The notes below the pieces were generated by a model. It was not told the origin of the DNA. It was given only the letters and a program-made list of their open reading frames with translations, and did no database searches. Made by a program: the position numbers and the translations under genes. A stretch of DNA of 64,000 bases, taken from Gemmatimonadota bacterium. GTDB lineage: Bacteria; Gemmatimonadota; Gemmatimonadetes; Longimicrobiales; Gaopeijiaceae. The stretch spans positions 1 to 64,000 of the forward strand of contig JAJDVT010000086.1 of assembly GCA_022826005.1 (NCBI GenBank), in the 5' to 3' direction. Below, in pieces: positions 40,374 through 42,712 of the stretch; the stretch's first letter is position 1, and every line of letters begins with the position of its first letter.

Positions 40374-40591
40374 GGTTTCTCCCGGTTGCGGCCGCGGCCT
40401 CGGCGGCGGCTTCGTTGGACTGCCGGTTCAACATGCGACCGGCGGGCCCGGCGTGAAAGCCCGCTCCTTTCCCCGCGGGCCCTGGCGGCACTACGTTGCG
40501 CGCCTGGCGGTGGCGGGTGAGCAGGCCTCGGTCGACACCCGCCCCGGCACAACCCGGTACACCAGTCGTCAGCGACCAAGGAGCCCCGAAC

Positions 40592-41161
40592 ATGCGCACG
40601 CTGTCCACACTCGGCCTCGCCGCCGCCCTGATCACGATCGGCTGGGTGGCGGGCCCACCCACTTCTCCCGGCCCCGGGGCGCCCCGGGACTCCGAGGCTC
40701 CCGACAACCCGCCCGCCACCTACATCTCCGCCGCCGACATCCTGGCCACGATCGGGAACGCCCCCGCCGGGCGGGTCAGCGACCAGCAGATCCGGCACAT
40801 CGACGCGGGCGGGCACAACGTGGGCGTGGGCGTGGTGCAGCGGCCGCCCAGCACGACGCTCGGCGCGATCCAGCACCACAACCAGACCGAGGTGTACTAC
40901 GTGGTCTCGGGGCGGGGGACGCTGGTGACGGGCGGCGAACTCACGAATGCCCGGGCGCTCCCCGCAGAGGGCGCGACGGTGCGCACCCTCACCGGGCCGA
41001 GTTCGGTGGGCGGCATCGACGGCGGCGAGAGCCGCGAGATCGGCCCGGGCGACATGCTGATCATCCCGGCGGGGTCGCCGCACGGGTTCAGCGAGGTCAC
41101 CGAGACGATCACCTACATCGTGGTGCGGGTGGATCCGGAGCAGCTGGTGGAGCTGAAGTAG
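40592..41161 (+). CDS. exported cupin-domain protein
   Basis: A 189-residue single-domain cupin with an N-terminal signal (about 4-20). Cupin motif 1, HHNQTEVYYVVSGRG (about 90-104), gives two His and a Glu metal ligands; motif 2, PGDMLIIPAGSPHGF (about 154-168), gives the third His. ATG 40592 has AAGGAG eight bases before it. It is the only plus-strand gene inside the thioredoxin array and is divergent from the metalloprotease. The enzymatic role is unknown; cupins range from isomerases to dioxygenases. The TIR element starts 21 bases after its stop. Confidence 0.85.
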   Translation: MRTLSTLGLAAALITIGWVAGPPTSPGPGAPRDSEAPDNPPATYISAADILATIGNAPAGRVSDQQIRHIDAGGHNVGVGVVQRPPSTTLGAIQHHNQTEVYYVVSGRGTLVTGGELTNARALPAEGATVRTLTGPSSVGGIDGGESREIGPGDMLIIPAGSPHGFSEVTETITYIVVRVDPEQLVELK

Positions 41162-41182: not shown

Positions 41183-41435
41183 CTAGCAGTCCGTGGATAA
41201 GCCCGCGCGAGCACCGAGAGCGGCGAGGCGCCGGGCTGGCAAGGCGCGACGAAGGGCGAATAGCGGAGCTATTTGCCCGAGGAGCAACGCAGAGCGGTGC
41301 TTCGGAGGCTCGAAGAGTAAAGAGAACATGACGTTGTGCAATGTTTTCTTGACAGTGCGAATACGTGAGCACCGTGGCCAGCCTGGATGCATTCGCCGCT
41401 CGAATGCCGCGGGGGTTTTATCCACGGGCTGCTAG
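41183..41435. mobile_element. 253-bp element with 18-base terminal inverted repeats (MITE-like)
   Basis: Left end CTAGCAGTCCGTGGATAA (41183-41200) and right end, the inverse complement CTAGCAGCCCGTGGATAA (41418-41435), match at 17 of 18 bases. Inside, GGGCGAATAGC-GGA-GCTATTTGCCC (41255-41279) forms an 11-base stem with one G-T pair, enclosed by a second pairing, AGCACCG (41210-41216) with CGGTGCT (41295-41301). No transposase is encoded; short open frames on both strands begin M-D-K because of the TIR. The right end supplies the stop codon of thioredoxin E. Relatives occur at 20690-20836 and 17645-17692. Confidence 0.7.
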
Positions 41436-42712
41436 TTGGCGCCCTCGTCCTCTCCGGTTTCGGCGTCCGTCGTGGCGACCGGCGCCGCCGCTTGCGCCTC
41501 GTACTCGCGCATCCGCAGCTCGCTGAGCATCCTGCCCACCGTCGCGATGAGGCTGCCGCCGCGCGTGCTCCTGACGTGGCGAATCACGCCCTCTTCGTCG
41601 AGGACGTAGATTGCCGGCCAGCCGGTCACGCCCCAGGCGGTGGCGATCGGCCCGCTGGTCGACACCTCGGCGTGGCCGTCCCACCAGGTGCGGTACGACG
41701 GCGCCTTCCCGCTGGCCTTCGCTGCGCGGATCGTCTCCACGTCGCCGTCGCTGTTGACCCCCAGCAGCACGAGCGGGTCGTCCTTGTGCTGCTCCAGGAT
41801 GAAGTGGTGGTACGGATACTCGCCGATGCAGGGCCCGCACCATTCCCCGGAGAAGATCAGGACGACGATGTTGCCCCGGTAGTCCTCCAATGCGAACTCG
41901 ACGCCCTCGGTGTCCTTCCCGACGATGTTCGGGGCCATCCGCCCGGGGGTGAAGCTCTCGACCCGCAGCAGGGCCTTGTCGATCGCCTCGGCGGCTTCGG
42001 GGTGGCGGGCCTTCAGTCCGTCGAAGAACTCCACGATGCGCGCGTGCTGCCCGTCGCTCACGAACCCGTTCTGGAGCCGGTTGGCGAAGAGCGAGAAATG
42101 GGTGGCCGACTCCCTCGCGAAGTCGTCCGCCGCATCCGGTATTCCGACCGCCGCGTCGAGGGCGCCGATCAGTCCATCGATCTGGGCATCGGAAAACGGC
42201 TTGTCGCCGGGGTTGAACCAGTCCTGGTAGGTGTGGTTCACGATCACCGACGACATTGTGGGCGGATCCGTGGACGGCACCGCATACCTGTCGATGTGTG
42301 TCGTCGCGTTGCCCGTGATCGCTTCGGCGTGGTCCGGGTGGCGCTCCCCGAGTTCCATCAGGTAGGCGTAGACCCGGGCCGTCTGTTCTTCGGTGGCCGC
42401 AGGGACCGCGAGCCGGCGGAAGAAGTTCCACAGGTGGACGTTGGCTTCGAGCTCGATGTCGGCGAGGGTCTCGTCGGCGGTCATCGCCTCGTCGAGCGCG
42501 GCCAACAGCGCGTCGAAGCGCTCGTCGTCCAGGGGCTCGCCACCGGTGTCGTAGTCGCTCAGCGGCGGGAACCAGACCTGGGTCGCGGCGGCGGGGAGAT
42601 CGATCGGCGGGTGGGCGCTGTCGCTGCCCGCGCCCGATCCGCTCAGCGAGATGACCAGCCCCAACGCGAAGGAAACGATGATTGCGCCGGCAATCGGCAG
42701 TGGTTTGCGCAT
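41432..42712 (-). CDS. TlpA-like thioredoxin E, membrane-anchored, two helical modules
   Basis: 426 residues: anchor 6-24, module 1 about 52-135 (ETLADIELEANVHLWNFFRRL), module 2 about 170-248 (DFARESATHFSLFANRLQNG), thioredoxin domain 253-410, WCGPC at 291-295 with an unusual I after the motif (WCGPCIGEYPYHH). In the conserved WWDG region the QPDA motif is replaced by HAEVST. The stop codon TAG lies at 41434-41432, within the right end of the TIR element, so the insertion may have changed the native C-terminus. It is 9 bases after the stop of F in transcription order. Confidence 0.9.
   Translation of the reverse strand: MRKPLPIAGAIIVSFALGLVISLSGSGAGSDSAHPPIDLPAAATQVWFPPLSDYDTGGEPLDDERFDALLAALDEAMTADETLADIELEANVHLWNFFRRLAVPAATEEQTARVYAYLMELGERHPDHAEAITGNATTHIDRYAVPSTDPPTMSSVIVNHTYQDWFNPGDKPFSDAQIDGLIGALDAAVGIPDAADDFARESATHFSLFANRLQNGFVSDGQHARIVEFFDGLKARHPEAAEAIDKALLRVESFTPGRMAPNIVGKDTEGVEFALEDYRGNIVVLIFSGEWCGPCIGEYPYHHFILEQHKDDPLVLLGVNSDGDVETIRAAKASGKAPSYRTWWDGHAEVSTSGPIATAWGVTGWPAIYVLDEEGVIRHVRSTRGGSLIATVGRMLSELRMREYEAQAAAPVATTDAETGEDEGAN

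Follow-up and report, generated by a model that had tools for sequence, protein, structure and literature searches.

An inverted-repeat element beside a thioredoxin-like gene

The 3′ end of gene E, a member of a thioredoxin-like array in a 64,000-nucleotide stretch of Gemmatimonadota DNA (the window), runs into a short sequence with inverted ends, which raises the question of what this sequence is, what brought it there and whether it altered the gene. It lies between gene E and a convergent gene whose cupin-like name we take from reading the sequence. A sequence-only reading had treated it as a MITE or a mobile REP-like repeat which may have given gene E a new stop codon. From the comparisons described below, it is probably a 247-bp MITE moved in trans by a DUF772 IS transposase, for which the nearest named family is IS1182. 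The features are listed here, and the element strand (+) is the one with the best score for the conserved fold.

41186-41432, + strand: MITE proper, 247 bp, 250-bp class, GCAG...CTGC (covariance model match 41184-41434, E 4e-20)
41184-41185, no strand: left copy of the TA target duplication, within CTAG 41183-41186 (from the sequence and from the L016/L162 empty-site comparison of a sister copy)
41433-41434, no strand: right copy of the TA target duplication, within CTAG 41432-41435 (from the sequence and the L016/L162 comparison)
41186-41205, + strand: left terminal inverted repeat, common to the probable IS partner
41413-41432, - strand: right terminal inverted repeat
41207-41292, + strand: inner core, conserved across families of the phylum independently of the termini
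41254-41278, + strand: apical hairpin of the core, GGGCGAATAGC/GCTATTTGCCC (helix 8)
41297-41377, + strand: A/T-richer insert of approximately 75-81 nt, which marks the 250-bp as against the 177-bp class
40517-41161, + strand: convergent neighbour gene, cupin-like
41432-42712, - strand: gene E, AhpC/TSA-thioredoxin-like protein (TAG stop at 41434-41432)

The inverted ends (41183-41200 and 41418-41435) match at 17 of 18 positions, as had been read previously, and the natural edges of the element are GCAGTCCGTGGATAA...TTATCCACGGGCTGC at 41186-41432. The element proper is set at these edges because each terminal CTAG is made up of the TA duplication, one flanking base outside it and the element's own terminal base inside it. 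The internal hairpin is real, although it lies one base away from where it had first been placed (41254-41264 with 41268-41278, 10 of 11 positions paired). An outer pairing of 41210-41216 with 41295-41301 had also been proposed; the two segments are indeed complementary, but the minimum-energy fold pairs these bases otherwise. The element was confirmed to contain no transposase, and 80-aa open reading frames on both of its strands were regarded as spurious.

Dispersed copies and empty sites

A mobile element should have further copies in its host, and approximately 40 full or near-full copies were found in the 4.85-Mb host genome, diverged (74-92% identity) and set in unlike flanks. The exact ends were enriched in this genome, with 57 matches to GCAGYCCGTGGAYRR and none to the reversed pattern. 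The element is present in all 22 of the same-genus genomes searched and is patchy beyond the genus, and two small genomes, G011 and G014 (2.8 and 3.3 Mb), carry more than 220 exact ends each, at several times the density of the others. Neither the element nor its core motif was found in the plasmid collection and viral contigs searched.

The copies fall into two size classes, one of approximately 177 bp (left 114 and right 57) and one of approximately 250 bp with the A/T-richer insert of around 75 nt, and shorter derivatives occur down to approximately 55 bp. The insert of the 250-bp copies, including that in the window (41320-41362), carries conserved A/T-rich dyads, GTAAAG-N5-ATGACA ... GTAAAG-N5-TTGACA, which have a period of approximately 21 bp and look like a tandem operator or promoter. 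Two other arrangements were observed. An IS630-type element with TGTCCC ends (L115 783-2084, G011:C13) is immediately bordered by a right end of the MITE family on one side and by a left end on the other. Head-to-tail arrays of near-identical copies are present at L161 1500-2250 (G021:C1:207146-207893), L224 7524-7866 and L226 7652-7993; in these arrays, those of G021 among them, the ends are separated by CC or by no spacer and TA is found at the outer borders only, so the junctions resemble abutted ends rather than repeated TA insertion. The G021 arrays are unexplained by simple TA insertion and count against the explanation preferred here.

The joined flanks of 13 host copies were searched in three close relatives, and many of the matches ran straight through the junction, marking empty sites with flank identities of 91-94%. 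The cleanest of these is L016 versus L162 (flank identity 94%), where GACGAG-TA-element-TA-GCCC is set against GACGAGTAGCCC. Both of the marks of transposition to which the earlier reading had looked, empty sites and a target-site duplication, are thus present, the cleanest duplication being 2 bp, TA; the empty-site pairs L025/L177 and L004/L168 fit a duplication of CA. In a permutation of the aligned MITE copies, 19 of 58 flanking pairs matched where 16.1 were expected (P 0.19), a comparison in which duplication is inseparable from target preference owing to the age of the copies and the predominance of TA. The evidence for duplication is therefore that of the empty sites and of the IS copies described below.

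These sites also bear on the second half of the original proposal, the mobile REP-like repeat. As a REP or BIME-type element it would be mobilised in single-stranded form by a Y1 (RAYT) transposase. Such an origin would suit the folding of the whole element as an imperfect hairpin, but Y1 single-strand transposition is not known to leave a target duplication. Here a clean empty site reveals a duplication of 2 bp, and the outermost bases are genuine terminal inverted repeats in common with a DDE element. A REP-like origin is therefore hardly credible. The element is instead short, with terminal inverted repeats and no transposase gene, and has dispersed copies genome-wide, a duplication, empty sites and ends in common with an IS, all of which support the MITE reading.

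An insertion sequence with the same ends

If the element is a MITE, an IS with the same terminal repeats might be expected, and a search by transposase family gave two loci, L201 and L197, where a transposase is bounded by MITE-type ends. Both are frameshifted, and in each the right end together with the TAG that follows has the same sequence as window positions 41417-41435. By protein search, copies whose frames are still open (458-486 aa) were recovered from G001, G005 and G015; those found elsewhere are degenerate. Altogether there are 12 bounded IS copies of 0.9-1.53 kb; TA is found on both sides and CTA on the left in all of them, and TAG on the right in 11. At full size the IS is approximately 1.5 kb, with the same ends as the MITE in the right orientation. 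The transposase matches PF05598, PF01609 and PF13751 (DUF772 and DDE), all over cut-off, and its best match is NF033551 (IS1182, NCBIfam equivalog) at 192.5 bits; since this is below the 270-bit cut-off, the IS is termed nearest to IS1182 and not a member. A distant relative on plasmid pLB1 has 48% identity and similar ends, but its own internal stop.

On these sequence comparisons the DUF772 IS is the probable autonomous partner of the MITE. Similarity between the two is limited to the outer 20 bp or so, which leaves some room for movement of the MITE by another transposase, such as one of the IS630/Tc1 type, the likeness of the ends to the DUF772 IS being convergent or secondary. The target of IS630 is also the TA in CTAG, and genes of this type occur in the genus. 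However, MITE ends bound no IS630-type locus among the 20 examined in the host and its relatives, whereas the DUF772 IS has both ends in the right orientation in 12 copies, and in a chimaera (L269 330-1740, G018:C72) a left end of the MITE (92% over 91 nt) is followed by part of the interior of the DUF772 IS and by its right end. A different transposase is accordingly an unlikely source of the copies, and we infer that it is the DUF772 IS that moves the 247-bp MITE. Within the host genome only a 45-aa relic of a DUF772 transposase was found; a search of that genome with PF13751 gave no match and no long-range pairs of ends hinting at an IS were seen in it. As no intact partner was found there, the host copies are presumably now immobile.

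Insertion into stop codons

Under the preferred explanation, the DUF772 transposase would recognise GCAGYCCGTGGATAA ends and move the MITE in trans into the TA of CTAG-like sites, with the TA being duplicated. Insertion into a TAG stop is silent, as TA and the terminal G re-make TAG, and this is what happened at gene E. The full-size IS follows the same rule, its transposase frame being open to the last base and taking its TAG from the target. In 9 of the 12 IS copies the transposase frame, which has no internal stop, does end exactly at the IS edge, with TAG given by the target.

In the TAG of gene E (41434-41432), the first two bases come from the TA duplication and the third is the terminal base of the element. 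Relatives of this gene were found in Gemmatimonadetes MAGs, and in three orthologues (L031, L032 and L034) the covariance model detected no element at the gene-E site. In these element-free orthologues a TAG already closes the gene at the corresponding position, which refutes the suggestion that the element gave gene E a new stop. Because TA and the terminal G rebuild TAG, the gene E protein was unchanged by the insertion.

Insertions often lie in or beside stop codons: of 43 copies placed between genes by a simple GC3 rule for gene calling, 13 occupy a stop codon as the copy at gene E does. This frequency could be read in another way, namely that the element is a domesticated structured RNA or transcription terminator which was dispersed long ago and is kept by the host at gene 3′ ends. 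The excess is however slight when set against the non-coding CTAG sites, 24 of 130 of which are stops (P ~0.04), and there is no orientation bias relative to co-directional neighbours (11 with, 18 against, P 0.26). Further evidence on this reading comes from the fold of the element.

A covarying core carried by different termini

As a single strand the window element folds at -77.1 kcal/mol, compared with -47.2 +/- 3.6 for shuffled sequences (z -8.4). Over its full length the element folds into a single long hairpin, whose internal loops are conserved and rich in purines (CACCGAG, GGCAAGGCGCGACGA, GAGGAGCAACG, GGATGCA and CGAATG). When the phylum was searched with the left 111 bases, matches in other families were limited to positions 22-107 or so. 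The elements of these other families are mostly 153-186 bp with termini that are quite unlike, although they are still commonly flanked by CTAG, and among 38 of them the mean pairwise identity is 0.76 for the core (approximately 90 nt) but 0.56-0.57 for the terminal repeats. The unlike repeats carried around the core include GCAGYCCGTGG..., GTGTCCTGTCCCAGAAG..., GTGTGGTGTCGCAG... and GTACTTGGTTGGGG.... A partner IS for the GTGT-type ends was not found in the stretches fetched from G035, G042 and G185; that such ends are presumably an IS630 product is a guess only and is not claimed here.

Of 54 pairs in the consensus fold, 43 have changed on both sides, and 94.6% of cells pair compared with 77.5% in shuffles; sliding the partner by 1-3 columns reduced pairing to 32-41%. 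The consensus fold scored -81.9 on the window + strand and -39.1 on the other strand. At pairs predicted on both strands G-U (51) outnumbers A-C (26), a difference which is suggestive only, as the sequences are related. A covariance model built from the other-family elements, with the window copy left out of the build, recovered the window copy at E 4e-20 and no other match in the window. No Rfam family matches at threshold; Cupriavidus-1 RNA gave a weak full-length match at window 41204-41278 (17.3 bits against a threshold of 45.5, E 2.9), which is probably due to chance.

The covariation, together with a conserved core set against variable ends, suggests a structured core under selection that has been fitted with different termini. 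A merely decayed IS would not show such a pattern. Very strong covariation and conserved unpaired blocks would also suit the domesticated RNA introduced above, but relatives whose flanks are 91-94% identical lack the element at these sites, and the lack of orientation bias, the slight stop-codon excess and the absence of a Rfam family at threshold argue in the same direction, making this reading very improbable. The first reading had considered that a sequence conserved at the same position in distant species would point to a fixed RNA; the position is not conserved, whereas the core is conserved across families at other positions. Host selection at fixed sites is unlikely, given the empty sites and the lack of orientation bias. 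A better guess is selection within the element's own replication, via a single-stranded DNA or RNA form, and the covarying core would then be kept because its fold in single-stranded form is important for propagation of the element itself. It is possible, and we suggest it tentatively, that the MITE is a modular mobile element in which the hairpin core of approximately 90 nt is the conserved unit and the ends are exchangeable, presumably with transposase switching, while folding on one strand is kept by selection.

Comparison with known elements

ERIC and Correia-type repeats are imperfect palindromes of 100-250 bp with TA-type targets and an optional insert that gives two size classes. The present MITE resembles them in its palindrome, target and size classes, but differs in sequence and host and in that a probable autonomous partner has been identified. 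IS870 belongs to the IS5/IS427 group, whereas the present transposase scores best as IS1182. By the title of its original report, IS870 needs CTAG, which gives the stop of its large ORF (Fournier, Paulus and Otten 1993, J Bacteriol 175:3151; title cited in PMC6471742), and to that extent the present partner is alike, its transposase stop also being supplied by a CTAG target.

MITEPsy1 of Pseudomonas syringae is 100 bp, inserts after CTAG or YTAA and has been shown to transpose; it differs from the present MITE in its 4-bp duplication and ISPsy2-related ends, and no conserved core with exchangeable ends is described in the passages of that report consulted (PMC3189936). The MITEs paired with ISMac2 in Methanosarcina acetivorans (160-169 bp; PMC3852290) are, like the present one, short, numerous and bounded by the terminal repeats of an IS1182 relative, but their direct repeats are of 4 or 0 bp, whereas here there is TA and a core that covaries across families with different termini. 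IS1272 of the IS1182 family has terminal repeats that can form a stem-loop, as can the present element, and on insertion it takes the place of a stem-loop in the target, without any duplication (PMC5678879). In contrast, the present insertion is simple and TA is duplicated.

Implications for MITEs and their partners

The partner IS is newly found here, and looks like a further case of a stop supplied by the target, in a transposase group other than that of IS870. Taking the stop from the target links the choice of target to the function of the gene, and the rule of TA plus G explains why insertions can occupy stop codons at no cost. MITEs are usually seen as decayed ISs with constrained ends and a drifting middle. 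The present family shows the reverse, a conserved middle with variable ends, and its covariation points to selection on the fold. If the modular reading is true, the core would contribute to propagation in its own right, perhaps as an RNA, or perhaps as a DNA hairpin that a protein recognises on the lagging strand, and with such a role the amplification of prokaryotic MITEs and their choice of transposase would become testable.
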